From assembly GCA_002813895.1 (NCBI GenBank), contig CP024912.1:1-64000 (forward strand): 64,000 bases of DNA, in the 5' to 3' direction. This DNA comes from Cyanobacterium sp. HL-69. GTDB lineage: Bacteria; Cyanobacteriota; Cyanobacteriia; Cyanobacteriales; Cyanobacteriaceae. The notes under the pieces were generated by a model. It saw only the letters and a program-made list of their open reading frames with translations, did no database searches and was not told the DNA's origin. A program made the position numbers and the translations under genes. Below, in pieces: positions 4,722 through 14,046 of the stretch. How positions within the stretch are numbered: the first letter of the stretch is position 1; the number at the start of each line of letters is the position of its first letter.

Positions 4722-5684
4722 ATGACCGCATCTAATGATAGTGAACGTACTATTGTAATTGGTACTCGTAAAAGTAATTTGGCTTTGGTTCAAACCTACT
4801 GGGTAAAAAAAGAGTTAGAAAGTCATTTCCCCCATGTGGATTTTGAAGTGGAAAAAATGAGTACCCAAGGGGATAAAATCCTTGATGTTGCCCTCGCTAA
4901 AATCGGTGATAAGGGTTTATTCACCAAGGAATTAGAGTTGGGCATGATTAATAATGAAGTTGATTTTGCTGTGCATTCTTTGAAAGATTTACCCACCAAT
5001 TTACCCGATGGATTAATGTTGGGTTGTGTCAGCAAAAGGGTAAACCCTGCCGATGCTTTGGTGGTGAATGAAAAGCACAAGGATAAACAGTTAGATACTC
5101 TACCCGAAGGCGCTGTCATTGGTACTTCTTCTCTACGTCGTCTTGCCCAGTTGCGCCACCATTATCCTCACCTTACTTTTAAGGATGTCCGTGGTAATGT
5201 TAACACCCGTTTGGCGAAGTTGGATGCAGGGGAATATGATGCCATTATCTTGGCTGTGGCAGGGTTAGAAAGGTTGGATATGAGTGATCGCATTCACCAA
5301 GTTATCCCTAGCGAAATCTCCCTCCATGCCGTAGGGCAAGGGGCTTTGGGCATTGAGTGTCGCACGGGGGATGAAGCTGTTTTAGAAATTATTAAAGCAA
5401 TCCAAGATCAAGATACCCTTGATTGTACCCTCGCCGAGCGCTCTTTTTTACGGGTGTTAGAGGGGGGTTGTCAAGTGCCTATCGGAGTTAATACTTCCAT
5501 TGAAGGGAATCAGTTAACTTTGATAGGTATGGTTGCAAGTTTGGATGGTCAACAGTTACTTAAAGATAGTGTAACGGGCGATCGCACCAATGCTGAAAAA
5601 ATAGGTCAAGAATTAGCCGAAAAACTCAAAAATCAAGGCGCAGGAGAAATCTTAGCCGCTATCCTCGCCGAAATTGATCGCTAA
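4722..5684 (+). CDS. hemC: porphobilinogen deaminase (hydroxymethylbilane synthase)
   Basis: Polymerises four porphobilinogens into hydroxymethylbilane in haem and chlorophyll synthesis in the cytosol. The 320 residues fit the family. The substrate loop HSLKDLP (about 85-91) holds the catalytic Asp (D89). The dipyrromethane cofactor attaches to the cysteine of EGGCQVPIG (C250). [11 protein letters not shown] and [10 protein letters not shown] are the conserved arginine-rich substrate-binding segments. It starts at ATG 4722, divergent from the SulP gene, and ends before a hairpin. The window also holds hemF, acsF and por from the same pathway, but not clustered with hemC. Confidence 0.97.
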
Positions 5685-6725: not shown

Positions 6726-6767
6726 GAAAAAGTCTGAAATTGCTCTAAAATAATTCTCATAGACGGG

Positions 6768-6925
6768 GATTATTTTGATCGCCCTTAAATAAGCGAACAT
6801 TGGTTAATATACATAACCTATCCATAAAAAGCCTATTTTTAGAAAGACTACACAGTGGAACATCCCAAAATGGATCTAGGCGCGATCGCCCCGTGCTAGT
6901 ATTAGATGGTGCCATAGACACAAAT
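6768..6925 (+). repeat. direct repeat, outer copy of metH 5' end and leader
   Basis: The stretch shares a 26-base identical start with 7435-7460 (GATTATTTTGATCGCCCTTA onward), then a diverged leader, then about 102 bases matching the first 34 codons of metH at about 90% identity without indels. The inner copy has about 29 extra leader bases. The two copies bracket hicAB. Confidence 0.85.
6824..6925 (+). pseudogene. 5' fragment of metH, start codon lost
   Basis: Reads as metH codons 1-34 ([17 protein letters not shown], then [10 protein letters not shown]) but the initiator ATG is ATA (6824-6826). Similarity stops at about 6925, where the gene is cut off just before hicA. It is a non-functional remnant about 690 bp upstream of the intact start. 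It either reflects duplication caused by hicAB insertion or is the stump of a former resident metH. Confidence 0.85.
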
Positions 6926-6947
6926 TTGATTAAATCTAATATTTTCT

Positions 6948-7181
6948 ATGACCAAGAAAGATAAATTATGGAAAAAAGCAAAAACTAATCCTCAAAATCT
7001 CACTTTTGCTGAATTTGAAACCTTATTAAAACAATGTGATTGGCAACTTAGCCGTCAAAAAGGGAGTCATCGTTTATGGTATTCCCCAAAAAATCAACCA
7101 TTACCAATTCAACCTCAAAAAGACGGTAAAGCTAAGATTTATCAAATCAAACAGTTTTTAAAATATCAAGAGGAAATATAA
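6948..7181 (+). CDS. hicA: HicA-family mRNA interferase toxin
   Basis: Small double-stranded-RNA-binding-fold ribonuclease that cleaves mRNA in translation-linked fashion unless bound by HicB. The 77 residues match the family. The conserved GSH motif is in RQKGSHRLW, with catalytic His41, and a basic surface follows. hicB starts 2 nt after the stop, the canonical hicA-hicB order, so the two are co-translated. The pair sits between two copies of the metH 5' end. The reading frame is intact and the catalytic histidine present, so the toxin is probably active. Confidence 0.85.
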   Translation: MTKKDKLWKKAKTNPQNLTFAEFETLLKQCDWQLSRQKGSHRLWYSPKNQPLPIQPQKDGKAKIYQIKQFLKYQEEI

Positions 7182-7183
7182 CT

Positions 7184-7411
7184 ATGAGTATCAATAATTA
7201 TGATTTTGACAAATTTACTATTAATCTTTATGTAGATGAGAATAACGATTGGTTATGTTATTTTGTGGAAATGCCCAATATCTCTGCTTTCGGAGATACT
7301 CCAGAGGAAGCATTAATGGAATTACAAACAGCATGGGAAATGGTGAAAGAAGATTTTATGATCAAAGGATTAGATATTCCCATTGCACCTCGTCAATTGG
7401 CTTTTTCTTAA
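7184..7411 (+). CDS. hicB: HicB-family antitoxin
   Basis: 75-residue partner of HicA. The segment WLCYFVEMPNISAFGDTPEE is the partially degraded RNase H-like HicB fold (xVExPxxxxxGxTxEEA pattern), followed by a helix (ALMELQTAWEMV). The short C-terminal tail has no obvious ribbon-helix-helix or HTH DNA-binding domain, so autoregulation, if any, would use that tail. It sits 2 nt downstream of hicA. It is followed after 23 nt by the inner copy of the metH leader, so read-through into metH is possible. Confidence 0.85.
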   Translation: MSINNYDFDKFTINLYVDENNDWLCYFVEMPNISAFGDTPEEALMELQTAWEMVKEDFMIKGLDIPIAPRQLAFS

Positions 7412-7434
7412 CGAAAACATTCTATCCTCACGAA

Positions 7435-7618
7435 GATTATTTTGATCGCCCTTAAATAAGCTAAAGTAGTTAATATATATAACTTATAGAAGCAATTATA
7501 AATAAATAACTACTCCATGAAAAGCCTATTTTTAGAAAGACTCCATAGCGGAACATCCCAAAACGGATCTAAGGGCGATCGCCCCGTGCTAGTATTAGAT
7601 GGTGCCATGGGTACAAAT
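7435..7618 (+). repeat. direct repeat, inner copy (metH leader and first codons)
   Basis: Partner of 6768-6925. It contains the leader of intact metH and its first 34 codons. It has a real ATG at 7517 where the outer copy has ATA. Confidence 0.85.
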
Positions 7619-10600
7619 CTACAAGTACAAAACCTCACCGCCGAAGACTTTGGCGGGGCAGAATACGAAGGCTGTAACGAATATTTAGTCCATACCAAAC
7701 CAGAAGCTGTAGAAATCGTCCATAGACAATTCCTCGAAGCGGGTGCTGATGTCATCGAAACCGACACCTTTGGGGGTACCCCCTTAGTATTAGCAGAATA
7801 TGACCTCGCAGATCAATCCTATTACCTCAACAAAACCGCCACCGAATTAGCCAAAAAACTAGCCCAAGAATATTCTACCCCCGAAAAACCTCGTTTTGTG
7901 GCAGGAAGCATTGGCCCTGGGACAAAACTACCCACCCTCGGACATATCGACTACGATAGCCTAAGAGATGCCTATGTAACCCAAATCCATGGTTTATACG
8001 ATGGAGGTGCCGATTTACTATTAGTAGAAACCTGTCAAGACGTACTACAAATCAAAGCCGTCCTCAACGCCATCGAAGAAGTATTTAAAGAAAAAGGAGA
8101 AAGACTACCCCTGATGGTATCCGTCACCATGGAAACCATGGGTACAATGTTAGTAGGTACAGAAATAAGTGCAGCCCTTGCCATCCTTGAGCCTTATCCC
8201 ATCGACATTTTAGGGCTAAACTGTGCCACAGGCCCAGACTTGATGAAACCTCACATCAAATATTTAAGCGAAAATTCTCCCTTCATCGTCTCCTGTGTGC
8301 CAAACGCTGGTTTACCCGAAAATGTTGGCGGACAAGCGCACTACAAACTATCTCCCATCGAACTAAAAATGCACCTAATGCACTTTATCGAAGACTTGGG
8401 AGTACAAGTAATTGGGGGTTGTTGCGGTACTCGCCCTGATCATATCAAAGCATTGGCGGAAATTGCTAGTACCCTTAAAGCAAAAGAGCGTCATTACAAT
8501 TATGAGCCTTCCGCCGCCTCCATTTATGGTACTCAACCCTACCATCAAGATAACTCCTTCTTGATTGTAGGAGAAAGACTTAACGCCAGTGGCTCGAAAA
8601 AATGCCGTGATATGCTCAATGCCGAGGATTGGGACGGTTTAGTATCCCTTGCCAAAAATCAGGTAAAAGAAGGGGCGCACATCCTCGATGTGAATGTGGA
8701 TTATGTGGGGCGTGATGGGGAAAAAGATATGCACGAATTGGCTTCCCGTCTGGTGAATAATGTCACCCTTCCCCTCATGTTAGACTCCACGGAATGGCAA
8801 AAAATGGAGGCAGGTTTAAAGGTGGCAGGGGGTAAATGTATCCTCAACTCCACTAACTATGAGGATGGGGAGGAAAGATTTTTTAAGGTGTTGGAGTTAG
8901 CCAAGCAATACGGGGCTGGGGTAGTAATTGGTACTATCGATGAGGATGGGATGGCGCGCACGGCGGACAAAAAATATGAGATTGCGAAACGTGCTTATAA
9001 TGATGCCCTTAAATTTGGTATTCCTGCCCACGAAATCTTTTTTGATACCCTTGCTTTGCCTATTTCTACGGGGATTGAGGAGGATAGGGAAAATGGTAAG
9101 GCTACCATCGAATCTATCAAGCGCATCCATGCAGATTTTCCTGAATGTCATTTTATGTTGGGGGTTTCTAATATTTCCTTTGGGTTGAATGCGGCGGCGC
9201 GTCAGGTTTTAAACTCTGTATTTCTCCATGAGGCGATGCAGGTAGGGATGGACGGTGCGATCGTTTCTCCTAATAAAATACTACCATTAGCGAAAATAGA
9301 TAAAGAAGTCTTAGAAATATGCCTAGACCTAATCTATGATAATAGAAAATTTGATGGGGATATTTGTAGCTATGACCCCCTAGGAAAATTAACCACTTTA
9401 TTTCAGGGGAAAACCACGAAAAGTAATAAGAAAAATGTGGCTGATTTACCCATCGAAGAAAGACTTAAACAACATATCATTGAAGGGGAAAGAATTGGTT
9501 TAGAAGATGCTTTAAATATAGCCCTAGAAAAGTACCCTCCTTTAGATATTATCAATGTTTATTTATTAGATGGTATGAAGGTTGTGGGGGAATTATTTGG
9601 TAGTGGACAAATGCAGTTGCCCTTTGTTTTACAATCTGCTCAAACCATGAAATCGGCGGTAGCTTTCCTTGAACCTTTTATGGATAAAGCGGATACAAAT
9701 AGTAATGGAAAAGGTACATTTTTAATTGCCACAGTGAAGGGAGATGTTCATGATATTGGTAAAAATTTAGTAGATATTATTCTTTCTAATAATGGTTATA
9801 AAGTTGTTAATATTGGTATTAAACAACCCGTAGAAAATATTATTCAAGCCTATCGAGAATGTAATGCTGATTGTATTGCTATGAGTGGTTTGTTGGTAAA
9901 ATCTACCGCTTTTATGAAAGATAATTTAGAAACATTTAACCAAGAGGGAATTAATGTTCCTGTTATCTTGGGTGGGGCTGCTTTAACTCCAAAATTCGTC
10001 TATGAAGACTGTCAAAATGTTTATAACGGTAAAGTTGTTTATGGTAAGGATGCTTTTGCTGATTTACATTTTATGGACAAATTAATGCCTGCTAAAAATA
10101 GTAAGCAATGGGATAATTTAGAAGGCTTTTTTGGCACATTTGAGGAGGAAAATAATCTCTTTAAAGGTCGTAATTTTGATGATTCGGGAGAGGTACAAAA
10201 AGAAGAGAAAAAAGAGCAGGAGAAGGAAGAAGTTAAGGTAATTGATACTCGCAGAAGTGATGCTATTGATCCTAATATTGAACGTCCTACACCTCCTTTT
10301 TGGGGTACAAAAATTATGTATCCTGATGAGTTTGATTTTGATGATCTTTTTTGGTATTTAGACTTACAAGCATTGTTTGCTGGGCAGTGGCAATTCCGCA
10401 AACCTCAAGGGCAACCAAGGGAGGAATATAATGAGTTTTTAGCTGAACAAGTTTATCCTATTTTGCAGGAATGGAAAGCAAAAATAAAACTAGAAAATCT
10501 TTTACATCCTACCCTAATTTATGGTTATTTTCCCTGTCAATCGGAGGGGAATACTTTATATATTTATAACCCTGAAAATCCAGAAGCTAAGGAAGAAATT

Positions 10601-11092
10601 GCTAAGTTTGATTTCCCCCGTCAAAAGTCGGGTAAACGGTTATGTATTGCGGACTTTTTCGCCTCGAAGGATTCAGGGGTAATTGATGTTTTCCCCATGC
10701 AGGCGGTAACGGTGGGTGAGATTGCCACGAAGTACGCCCAAAAACTGTTTGCCAAGGATGAATATACCAACTATCTCTATTACCATGGTATGGCGGTACA
10801 AACGGCAGAAGCCATGGCGGAATGGTGCCATGCAAGGATTCGTCGGGAGTTAGGTTTTGGGGATTTAGAGCCTGATAATATTCGGGAGATGTTTAAGCAA
10901 CGTTATCAGGGTTCACGGTATAGTTTTGGTTATCCTGCTTGTCCTAATATGTTAGATCAATATGTGCAGTTAGATTTATTGGATACTAAGCGTATTGGTA
11001 TGTATATGGATGAGTCTGAACAAATATACCCCGAACAGTCCACAAGTGCTATTATTTGTTACCATCCTGTGGCTAAATATTTTAGTGCTTAA
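7517..11092 (+). CDS. metH: cobalamin-dependent methionine synthase
   Basis: Transfers the methyl group of 5-methyltetrahydrofolate to homocysteine through methylcobalamin. The 1191 residues are full length. Domains in order: homocysteine-binding barrel (about 20-325) with zinc cysteines C236, C302 and C303 ([10 protein letters not shown]); folate-binding barrel (about 345-620); cobalamin cap (about 645-730); B12-binding domain with axial His745 in GDVHDIG; a charged Glu/Lys-rich linker (about 875-910); and the AdoMet-dependent reactivation domain (about 925-1185) with [10 protein letters not shown]. Both the first 34 codons and the last 60 codons exist as second copies outside the gene, each beyond a toxin-antitoxin module. 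Only this copy is complete. Confidence 0.97.
10912..11092 (+). repeat. direct repeat, inner copy (3' end of metH)
   Basis: The last 181 bases of intact metH, matched without indels by 11849-12029 with about 19 mismatches counted by eye (about 90% identity). The two copies flank an antitoxin/PIN toxin pair. Confidence 0.9.
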
Positions 11093-11102
11093 ATGAGGTT
11101 TT

Positions 11103-11119
11103 GGTGGGGATTACCCACC
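11103..11119 (+). terminator. GGTGGG/CCCACC hairpin after metH
   Basis: GGTGGG (11103-11108) pairs with CCCACC (11114-11119). No T-run follows. Similar GGTGGGC...GCCCACC hairpins lie just after the metH 3' fragment (12043-12061) and after leuA (34743-34761). Confidence 0.45.
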
Positions 11120-11180
11120 CTACAATGAATCATTGTATGATTAGTAAAATAAAAATTAATCATTAAATCAATAAAATATT

Positions 11181-11393
11181 ATGACTTATACAATCGATGC
11201 TATTTTTCATGGTAAAGTTTTTGAACCATCATCACAAGTTAATTTAAAACCAAATACGAAGGTTAAAATCACCATAGAAGAAAATCAAGAAAATGGAGAG
11301 TTCAATCGAGCTTACACTTTTTTAAAAACAGCTAGAAATCTTAACATAGATGCTCCAGCTGACTTTTCGGAAAACATTGATAGTTATTTATAA
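11181..11393 (+). CDS. antitoxin of a PIN-toxin (VapBC-type) module, DUF104-like
   Basis: 70-residue protein starting MTYTIDAIFHGKVFEPSS, a beta-rich N terminus like the AF2212/DUF104-type antitoxins that accompany PIN-domain toxins in cyanobacteria. A helical, acidic C terminus (about 45-70) would wrap the toxin. The stop codon lies 10 nt before the toxin ATG, so the two were a transcriptional pair. The partner toxin is broken, so the antitoxin may now be an orphan. It sits between the two copies of the metH 3' end. Confidence 0.65.
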   Translation: MTYTIDAIFHGKVFEPSSQVNLKPNTKVKITIEENQENGEFNRAYTFLKTARNLNIDAPADFSENIDSYL

Positions 11394-11403
11394 GGCGAAA
11401 TAG

Positions 11404-11838
11404 ATGATAATAAATAGTAAAGTTTTCTTAGATACCTCCTATGTTATTGCCTTAATTTCTACTCAAGATAACTATTATTAAAACGCCTAAATAATTGCTG
11501 AAATTTTAGAAGAAAAATCTATTACTTTAATTACCACTCAAGCAATTTTATTAGAAATTGGTAACGCACTATCTAAGTTAAAATATCGTCAAGTGGCTAT
11601 TTCTTTATTAAAATCGTTAGAAATTGATCCGAAAGTAGAAATTATTAACTTATCCGATGAACTCTATCAACAAGCATTTAAACTTTATTGTCAGCGTCAA
11701 GATAAAAAATGGGGATTAGTTGATTGTATTTCATTTATTGTCATGAAAAGATATGAAATTACTGAGGCTTTAACAACGGATATTCATTTTCAACAAGCTG
11801 GTTTTCGGGCTTTATTAAAAGAATTAGCTAAAAATTAA
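11404..11838 (+). pseudogene. PIN-domain toxin (VapC-type), two in-frame stops
   Basis: From ATG 11404 the frame reads MIINSKVFLDTSYVIALIS, the PIN N terminus with its first catalytic Asp. TAA codons interrupt it at 11479-11481 and 11488-11490. The same frame continues without shift to 11838 with ITTQAILLEIGNALSK (conserved Glu) and WGLVDCISFIVMK and LTTDIHF (later acidic residues). Only the part from GTG 11593 appears as an open frame, and that alone lacks the first catalytic Asp. The intact remainder suggests recent inactivation. Functional toxin is unlikely unless the stops are read through or are sequencing errors. Confidence 0.8.
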
Positions 11839-11848
11839 AATATGATAA

Positions 11849-12029
11849 TTCACGGTATAGTTTTGGTTATCCTGCTTGTCCTAATATGTTAGATCAATAT
11901 GTGCACTTGGATTTATTGGATACTAAACGCAGTGATATGTATAGGTCTTCATCAGAGCAAATATACCCTGAACAGTCCACCAGTGCTATTATTTGTTATC
12001 ATCCTGTGGCGAAGTATTTTAGTGCTTAA
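11849..12029 (+). pseudogene. duplicated 3' fragment of metH
   Basis: Same length as and collinear with the final 181 bases of metH, and still in the metH frame to its own stop ([17 protein letters not shown] ... [10 protein letters not shown]). Substitutions are concentrated around the codons after LLDTKR. No start codon or upstream part of the gene is attached, so it is a stump and not a gene. It begins 10 nt after the stop of the broken PIN toxin. Confidence 0.9.
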
Positions 12030-12042
12030 TTTCTTAAAAAAT

Positions 12043-12061
12043 GGTGGGCTTTTTGCTCACC
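12043..12061 (+). terminator. GGTGGGC hairpin after metH 3' fragment
   Basis: GGTGGGC (12043-12049) pairs with GCTCACC (12055-12061, one wobble). It occupies the same place relative to the metH stop as the hairpin at 11103-11119, so the downstream flank may also have been part of the duplicated unit, although little other similarity remains. Confidence 0.4.
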
Positions 12062-12086: not shown

Positions 12087-12728
12087 ATGGAAAGATCAAA
12101 AATGTTAAATAAACACTGGGATTCTATTTTTGCTGACAAAAAAGATCATCAATTAGGTTGGTACGAAAAGGATATAAATCAAACTCTAAAATTTATTGAC
12201 ACAACCATTAATTTTTCAGTCTCTAATCACACTGTTTTTTTACCAGGTGTTGGAACTTCTCTTTTAGTGGATGAACTAATTATGCGAGGAGCAAATTTAA
12301 TTTTAAATGATATTAGTGAAGAAGCCTTAAATAAATTAAAAATTAGAATTAATAAAATTAGTAATGACAAAAATAAAATTCATTGGTTACATCATAATAT
12401 TGCTCAACGACTACCAATAAATATTCCTTTATGTGACGTATGGATAGATAGAGCCGTACTTCATTTTTTGCTCACAGAAGATGATATTAACGGTTATTTT
12501 CAAAATTTACATTCTTTCGTTAAGTCAAAAGGCTATGTATTACTGGCGGAGTTTTCTGTTTATGGGGCGAGTAAATGTGCAGGTTTAGAATTACATCGTT
12601 ATTCTTTAGAGGAAATGACTGAAAGAATGGGAATTGATTTTAAATTGTTAAATTATGAAAATTACACATTTATTAACCCTTCGGGTAATTCACGCCCTTA
12701 TATATATACTTTATTTCAAAGACAGTAA
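12087..12728 (+). CDS. class I SAM-dependent methyltransferase (thiopurine methyltransferase-like)
   Basis: 213-residue Rossmann-fold methyltransferase. VFLPGVGTS (about 50-58) is the glycine-rich SAM loop (motif I), and LILNDISEEAL is the acidic second strand. DVWIDRAVLHFL resembles the motif of the TPMT/TehB-like group, which methylates small thiols, selenium or tellurium compounds. LLAEFSVYGASKCAGLELHRYS matches the same group's C-terminal region. Two possible ATGs exist (12087 and 12102). The second gives MLNKHWDSIF, the usual family start, but the first is kept because spacing does not decide. Substrate unknown. It lies in the AT-rich accessory run after metH. Confidence 0.75.
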   Translation: MERSKMLNKHWDSIFADKKDHQLGWYEKDINQTLKFIDTTINFSVSNHTVFLPGVGTSLLVDELIMRGANLILNDISEEALNKLKIRINKISNDKNKIHWLHHNIAQRLPINIPLCDVWIDRAVLHFLLTEDDINGYFQNLHSFVKSKGYVLLAEFSVYGASKCAGLELHRYSLEEMTERMGIDFKLLNYENYTFINPSGNSRPYIYTLFQRQ

Positions 12729-13344: not shown

Positions 13345-14046
13345 ATGACTTTGAAGGCAATTTTGTTTGATTTTAGTGGCGTTATCATTAATGATGAAAA
13401 TATTCATCGTCAATTGATTAATGATTTATTAATAGGTGAAAATTTGAGACCTTCAGGGGAAGATTATTATAATTTATGTTTTGGTAGGTGCGATCGTTTT
13501 TGCCTAAAAGATATACTAGAAAAAAAAGGTCGTGTGGTTACTAATGATTACTTAGATCGATTATCTATCAAAAAATCTCAAGATTATCGCTTGATGATTA
13601 AGGGTATGGACAACCTCCCGATTTATGAAACTGTCATTGGCTTTATTCGTCAGATGCCCGAAAAATGCTTACACCTTGCCCTCGTCACAGGGGCTTCTAA
13701 GGATGAGGTAGAGTTTATATTGGATAGAGCAAAAATAGCAGAATATTTTGATGTTATTGTTACGGGGGAAGATGTCAAAGCCCGTCAACCTCAGCCCGAT
13801 GCTTATCTTTTAGCGATGGATAAGTTAAACGAAAAATATCCTGATTTACAATTAAAACCTAATAACTGCTTGGTAATAGAAGACACTCCCGCAGGAATTG
13901 AAGGAGCAAAAAAGGCTCAAATGCAGGTGGTTGGTATTACCCATACTTATCCTTTCCATATGCTTCACCGTAAGGCTGACTGGTGCGTTGATTATTTAGC
14001 AGAGTTAGACTTAGATTTAGTTAGTGAGGTATTAGCACGAGATTGA
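13345..14046 (+). CDS. HAD-superfamily hydrolase (CbbY/beta-PGM-like) with altered motif I
   Basis: 233-residue HAD protein with a helical cap after motif I. Motif I reads FDFSGVI: the nucleophile D9 is present, but the second Asp of the usual DxD is Ser (S11). Motif II is LVTGAS, motif III lies before RQPQPDAY, and motif IV is VIEDTPAGIEGA. Sugar-phosphate phosphatases and mutases of this group need the second Asp as acid/base. HAD members without it include dehalogenases (DxY) and phosphonatase (DxA), so ordinary phosphatase activity is uncertain. It ends 33 nt before tRNA-Ala. Confidence 0.8.
   Translation: MTLKAILFDFSGVIINDENIHRQLINDLLIGENLRPSGEDYYNLCFGRCDRFCLKDILEKKGRVVTNDYLDRLSIKKSQDYRLMIKGMDNLPIYETVIGFIRQMPEKCLHLALVTGASKDEVEFILDRAKIAEYFDVIVTGEDVKARQPQPDAYLLAMDKLNEKYPDLQLKPNNCLVIEDTPAGIEGAKKAQMQVVGITHTYPFHMLHRKADWCVDYLAELDLDLVSEVLARD

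Follow-up and report, generated by a model that had tools for sequence, protein, structure and literature searches.

Recurrent Docking of Toxin–Antitoxin and Defence Modules at the Ends of metH as a Probable Origin of a Nested Locus in Cyanobacterium sp. HL-69

Introduction

How does a housekeeping gene come to lie between displaced copies of its own two ends, with a different toxin–antitoxin module on each side? The question is raised by metH of Cyanobacterium sp. HL-69, within the 64 kb of CP024912.1 (forward strand) that we refer to as the window; coordinates are window positions unless a locus number precedes them. To our knowledge, the movement of toxin–antitoxin and defence genes without a transposase or integrase is not well understood. 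An earlier note on this DNA had offered two readings: two independent insertions, each with a long target duplication, or a single cassette that brought in metH together with both modules. Comparison with related genomes leads us to the view, to which we give a probability of about 0.68, that the leader and start of metH and its end and terminator are recurrent docking sites for modules, which enter by way of homology.

Results and Discussion

The features of the locus, all on the + strand, are as follows.

6763..6925, +: 5' stump, the displaced metH leader and first ~34 codons, in which the start codon is gone (ATA for ATG) and the leader is partly deleted (self-comparison, alignment)
6948..7181, +: hicA toxin gene, 77 aa (PF07927, E 1.6e-9)
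7184..7411, +: hicB antitoxin gene, 75 aa (position; similarity to ORFs in G007 and G011)
7430..7618, +: inner copy of the 5' repeat, the leader and start of intact metH (self-comparison)
7517..11092, +: intact metH, cobalamin-dependent methionine synthase, 1191 aa (genome search, similarity)
10912..11092, +: inner copy of the 3' repeat, the end of intact metH (self-comparison)
11103..11119, +: post-stop palindrome "type B", after intact metH, as in G007, G013, and G014
11181..11393, +: AF2212-like antitoxin gene, 70 aa (PF01954)
11404..11838, +: PIN-domain toxin gene, broken by two in-frame TAA codons (PF01850, E 8.9e-12)
11849..12029, +: 3' stump, the displaced last 181 bp of metH (self-comparison)
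12043..12061, +: post-stop palindrome "type A", after the 3' stump, closely resembling what follows the first 3' stump in G007

The gene at 7517..11092 is taken to be metH, in line with its similarity across records. A search of the genome returns one full copy and the two stumps only, which confirms that an intact metH is nested between its own duplicated ends. The stumps are collinear with the intact gene and differ from it by about 10%, as had been claimed. At the 3' side, 11849-12029 matches 10912-11092 over 181 nt at 90% without an indel. At the 5' side, the ungapped match between 6809-6925 and 7502-7618 (117 nt, 88%) is joined by an extra upstream block (6763-6797 against 7430-7464, 35 nt, 91%), and the gapped alignment of 6768-6925 with 7435-7618 gives 77%. 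These repeats are the sole self-matches of at least 50 bp in the 64 kb at E 1e-4, which rules out chance as the origin of the copies.

The presence of a different module at each end, hicAB on the 5' side and AF2212/PIN on the 3' side, is likewise borne out. The HicA protein is 58% identical in amino acids to an ORF that lies behind a metH stump in G007. HicB gives no Pfam match at 0.1; it has 85% amino acid identity (86% in nucleotides over 240 bp) to an ORF upstream of metH in G011. Relatives of the AF2212-like gene are located downstream of metH in G014 and G007. The 3' module was correctly recognized as being of the PIN type, but with two in-frame stops in the PIN frame it can offer no more than an antitoxin beside a broken toxin. 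The suggestion that metH is armed on both sides therefore does not hold today. Elsewhere in this genome there are 16 further HicA/PIN matches, and self-comparison of the surrounding stretches shows repeats of at most 40 bp in the eight chromosomal ones and longer repeats in three plasmid-sized ones (contigs C2 and C3).

Two observations concern the surroundings of the gene. A SAM methyltransferase gene (12087-12728) lies directly after the 3' stump and is perhaps further cargo; its presence in 1 of 15 family genomes rules it out as an anchor gene. A MetE-type match (PF01717) occurs in this genome and in G004, G005, and G006 (4 of 15 family genomes; the other 11 have none), and metH is thus probably not the sole methionine synthase of this genome.

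The arrangement recurs in relatives. Twelve family loci contain a complete metH: the window, G002-G009, G011, G013, and G014. Outside these twelve are G010, where the gene is cut by a contig end, G012, which has no complete metH, and G001, which gives no match. Extra metH ends at E<=1e-8 are seen at 11 of 91 loci with a complete metH and at 8 of the 12 in the family (the window, G002, G007, G008, G009, G011, G013, and G014). The 91 loci are what remains of an earlier set of 95, which included incomplete loci and probable doubles (L033 = L028, from G010; L034 = L031, from G006), once L028, L029, L032, and L033 are dropped; L034, which probably duplicates L031, is still counted. No end copy at E<=1e-8 is seen in the nearest congeners, G003 and G004, of which G003 has just a 36-bp piece, or in G005 and G006, the pair from genus g2. 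Outside the family, end copies are found in a Xenococcaceae MAG (L069), a Prochloraceae MAG (L076), and a Hormoscilla MAG (L112), the last without the final ~54 bp of metH; the duplications in L076 and L069 have no evident cargo. In L076 (8481-8792) the last 100 bp of metH is repeated at 99% identity about 112 bp apart, which is either a fresh duplication or an assembly effect.

Position and orientation are largely uniform. At E<=1e-8, all 7 matches to the 5' end lie upstream and all 11 to the 3' end lie downstream, every one direct. At E<=1e-3, the 10 matches to the 5' end are all upstream and the 14 to the 3' end all downstream on the same strand, and a single opposite-strand match is present, in the window, at E 5.7e-5. 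Segments from the middle of the gene give matches in 3 of 95 loci, of 20-44 bp. As controls, 271 other genes were taken from the window and 34 stretches of 20 kb. Copies of an end are seen for 3 of these at E<1e-8 and for 13 at E<1e-3, and mid-gene matches for 5 of 271. The difference between 8 of 12 metH loci and 3 of 271 control genes is significant (Fisher, p 8.5e-11). A repeat-rich genome as the general cause is ruled out for this genome, where an end copy at E<1e-8 is seen for 0 of 138 control genes (27 from the window and 111 from 14 stretches), against 3 of 133 in relatives. All three exceptions are in G014 and encode CopB, an Eco57I-type restriction-modification protein, and a DUF5648 protein (L194:15313-16236, L195:6506-10084, L196:5831-7549); each has a 3'-end copy downstream, and they are possibly further docking genes.

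Different cassettes occupy the same place beside metH in different genomes. Across the loci the cargo types include BrnTA, HicAB, ParE, PemK, an Eco57I-type methylase (G002), a NACHT-TIR protein (G009), and DndB with an N6/N4 methylase (G011). The G007 locus carries a DUF6035/CoiA-nuclease and ParE, and the G008 locus KilA-N and HD proteins. Among 87 flanking ORFs of at least 60 aa scanned in seven relatives there are at least five BrnT, at least four HicA, and at least two PemK toxins; the 79 control ORFs include at least four PemK. Since PADLOC models also ring in the control set, the enrichment of cargo holds mainly for toxin–antitoxin genes and is modest in size, and many of the flanking ORFs are either unassigned or ordinary genes. 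IS1 and DDE_3 transposases are found near metH in some relatives.

Cargo genes themselves recur in part. The start of one N6/N4 DNA methylase is repeated downstream of metH in G002, G008, G013, and G014 (L021, L022, L023, L024), and G011 has the full gene (L027:10920-11786). The DUF6035 cargo gene of G007 has in turn a second copy of its own 3' end, 93% identical (L026:3509-3645, 5102-5237), and the two copies enclose a stump, hicAB, and a BrnA-like ORF, that is, nested end duplications.

The most informative junction is that of BrnTA. In five genomes the end of brnA is followed, after a few bases, by the last ~36 bp of metH in a join that is alike in all, and these genomes span three genus codes (G002; G007 and G010; G013 and G014). 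What follows the stop codon of the joined stump differs: type B in G002 and G010, type C in G013, type A in G014, and another sequence in G007. A check of 680 kb of other sequence from these genomes gave no type A or type C. Type B occurs there 12 times with up to 2 mismatches; with 8 copies in 280 kb of the genome of the window it is a dispersed repeat and carries less weight than the other two. In G003 and G004, type C comes after intact metH and is accompanied by a transposase-like ORF, which we take to be of the REP type. G013 has metH, BrnTA, and the stump, and then an ORF that matches this transposase-like ORF (747 bp, 88%). On these alignments, G003/G004 show the empty site and G013 the filled site for BrnTA as far as the transposase-like ORF, beyond which there is no match of 60 bp or more between them among the matches listed. 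The names hemC, gyrA-like, HAD, and REP-type or transposase-like are used here from a reading of the sequences and not from a family search.

The unit consisting of a metH end and BrnTA is located after the intact gene in G013 and after a stump in G002. Between these two genomes BrnTA is 93.4% identical over 515 bp, and metH 86.0%. By bit score, 15 of 18 end copies score higher against another species' metH end than against their own (9 of 9 at the 3' end, 6 of 9 at the 5' end; copies in G010 and G012 were left out), the exceptions being the 5' stump of the window and two 26-29 bp pieces in G002. The shared join, the different flanks, and the empty/filled pair suggest that modules dock at the ends of metH by recombination within metH homology. 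In such a process, a module of toxin–antitoxin, restriction-modification, or other defence genes that bears a piece of a metH end would recombine with the resident end inside the shared homology. The product would be the resident gene, the module, and the displaced resident end, so that metH is kept whole and the former junction is marked by a stump. Through the direct repeats on either side, the module could then leave as a circle and enter another metH, and modules could stack. We infer that the agent would be homologous recombination by RecA, acting on circles or linear DNA, with selection by addiction or defence.

The alternative that fares best is illegitimate insertion, in which each module entered independently, made a long target duplication of variable length, and was followed by no homologous exchange between metH ends. 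That the repeat lengths range from 36 to 185 bp and that the cargo includes addiction and defence genes would be expected of it. The identical brnA-stump join followed by different flanks in five genomes, however, points to later exchange at the repeats, and modules common to several genera in a new order also call for exchange after the founding event. We therefore consider it unlikely as a complete account, though illegitimate insertion may explain the founding events and the two insertions in the window.

Slightly less probable still is that a single cassette, consisting of a foreign metH and both flanking modules, replaced the middle of a resident metH whose ends survive as the stumps. This is the second reading of the earlier note, and it depends on the ancestry of the inner gene. 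The body of inner metH is 89.5/89.1% identical to that of G003/G004 and 82.7-84.5% to that of G002 and genera g3 and g5 (G002, G003, and G004 are congeners of the window genome). It groups with the congeners along its length, and the tree places it with G003/G004 at a support of 100/100. At fourfold sites, the identity of the window to G003/G004 is 64/64% for metH, which lies between the values for the gyrA-like gene (56/59%) and hemC (67/79%). In identity, tree, and fourfold sites, then, inner metH resembles its congeners and gives no sign of having come recently from any foreign lineage that was sampled.

The 5' stump also speaks against the cassette, since it has in common with the inner gene a private 24-bp insertion that is absent from 12 of 12 relatives viewed (8 aligned). 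The match between the two extends about 15 bp further upstream than the match to any relative (from 6763 rather than 6778), and each is the best match of the other. A plain local duplication would, as judged from this mutual best match, fit the 5' side of the window equally well. If hicAB did dock here, the donor lineage would be identical or very near to this one. At 7550-7583 the insertion, which is N-terminal, abuts a GCGATCGC palindrome, known as the cyanobacterial HIP1 motif. G009 and G010 have a different insertion at this spot, near which the 5' stumps in G007 and G011 also break off.

The 3' stump is more favorable to the cassette. It shares 162 of 181 positions with the inner end, 164 with G004, and 163 with G003, and in the bit-score count above it is a near tie (254, 250, and 242 bits). 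The best tree places it with G003/G004 at 77/89, and its last 75 bp is nearest to G004 (72/75, against 69/75 for the inner end). Topology tests exclude neither the grouping of stump with inner end (p-AU 0.133) nor that of the inner end with G003 and G004 (p-AU 0.325). The pattern of sites within the 3' repeat hints at a crossover, which is suggestive only as the pattern is not clean. That both stumps are about equally diverged from the inner gene, and that metH alleles seem to move between genera, would also suit a cassette.

The inner gene thus goes with the congeners and the 5' stump with the inner gene, both against the cassette, and the 3' stump leans toward G003/G004. Stump and inner end are each other's best match at the 5' side, and at the 3' side the inner end and those of G003/G004 are nearly tied as matches to the stump. 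Relatives with a single duplicated end and different cargo also speak against the cassette and, by the criterion of the note, for separate events: in G008 and G011 the duplicated end is the 5' one, in G014 and G009 the 3' one. These are other species and not strains of this one. The sequence after the stop codon differs between the 3' copies, with type B after intact metH and type A after the stump. This difference and the private insertion at the 5' end indicate that the two sides differ in history. Two separate insertions, hicAB at the 5' end and AF2212/PIN at the 3' end, fit the window best, in support of the first reading of the note; under the docking reading they would be two independent dockings. 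G003 and G004 have metH without the window's modules and in other surroundings, and no empty site for hicAB or AF2212/PIN was found among the relatives compared, a set that contains no near strain.

Finally, a site-specific recombinase acting in trans on the start and end of metH as attachment sites is very improbable: several joins do fall at the last ~36 bp and leave the gene restored, as with tRNA attachment sites, but the repeat lengths vary, both gene ends are used with unrelated sequences, and no tyrosine recombinase was found near metH. On contigs shared with metH, the nearest match to PF00589 is no closer than ~260 kb; several of these contigs are short, so a recombinase might conceivably lie further off in the fragmented genomes. 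As vehicles, plasmid and phage were tried and set aside. The metH 3' end matched two plasmid records, both Acaryochloris metH, and the 5' end one, Priestia metH; the 3' end matched no phage.

If modules dock at metH by homology, the gene itself may have been carried along. At fourfold sites, genera g3 and g5 are 67-78% identical in metH, 36-50% in hemC, and 34-45% in the gyrA-like gene; between G003 and G004 the values are 83%, 63%, and 56%. The metH tree holds g3 together at only 52/62, and the gyrA-like gene separates g3 and g5 at 99-100. On these comparisons, movement between genera seems to have affected metH more than it did the gyrA-like gene or hemC. Codon bias may raise the metH values in general and would hardly explain the change of rank. 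The yardstick genes are not free of exchange themselves, as hemC is 94% identical between the window and G004 and most other matched stretches are at ~84-87%. The idea that an allele could spread by means of its modules thus has some support at the level of the family, where alleles seem to cross genera, and not in the form of a cassette in the window.

The neighbors of metH differ among the window, G003, and G004 (window 4722-5684, 7517-11092, 13345-14046; L019, L020, L143-L146), and hemC and the HAD gene are far from metH in G003; in G004 they are on contigs other than that of metH. At the metH locus itself, G003 and G004 are 95-98% identical from about -69 bp to +730 bp, with no further 60-bp match within 5 kb of the gene among the matches listed. 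Given the apparent exchange of its alleles between genera, metH may not be a good guide to descent in this family. We tentatively propose, at slightly short of even odds, the broader picture of metH as a general docking gene of the family, with modules bounded by metH ends that excise, cross genera, stack, and dock again, and with a traffic that drags metH alleles between genera.

Comparison with Known Systems

A literature search for metH as a whole word gave nothing relevant among the matches listed. The closest parallel is insertion with long target duplication, reportedly described by Nobusato et al. in 2000 and said to have been proposed for restriction-modification genes in Helicobacter. 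There, addiction or defence genes lie within a long, variable target repeat and the target stays functional (PMC4978471, PMC3031569). The metH locus is likewise a selfish gene complex flanked by a long direct target repeat. An uninterrupted target in a related genome is seen for BrnTA, with G013 filled and G003/G004 not; for the modules of the window it is seen only in other surroundings. The metH loci differ in that one housekeeping gene is used at both ends, repeatedly and in many species, in that modules stack, and in that the same join occurs with different flanks, which implies exchange through the repeats.

Minimal mobile elements of Neisseria, reportedly treated by Snyder et al. in 2007, are a second parallel. 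Such an element has conserved genes on both sides of a variable cassette and no recombinase of its own. The cassettes integrate into the chromosome by homologous recombination (PMC3388099). At the ends of metH, too, cassettes differ between genomes at the same place. However, only metH is conserved, the outer neighbors differ, and the insertions leave a gene-end stump; with one conserved anchor gene, docking at metH is not a full minimal mobile element.

In E. coli, defence genes cluster in islands at particular chromosomal hotspots (PMC10121019). Compared with these hotspots, the anchor here is a duplicated end of a protein gene, and no tyrosine integrase was found nearby. From a composite element flanked by IS copies the window differs in that its flanking repeats are metH ends. 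Integrative islands at gene-end attachment sites restore the gene upon insertion and leave a displaced end. The same is seen at metH, except that no tyrosine recombinase was found (PF00589), the repeat length varies, and both gene ends are used.

Docking at metH would, if true, mean that the end of a housekeeping gene acts as an attachment site for an enzyme-free mobile repertoire, and it looks like a route by which modules spread without an enzyme of their own. The stumps can be read as a record of how modules moved among three genera, and one site is seen both empty and filled, which makes the mechanism testable in a transformable laboratory cyanobacterium. In kind, the system works like insertion with long target duplication or a minimal mobile element, with a twist.
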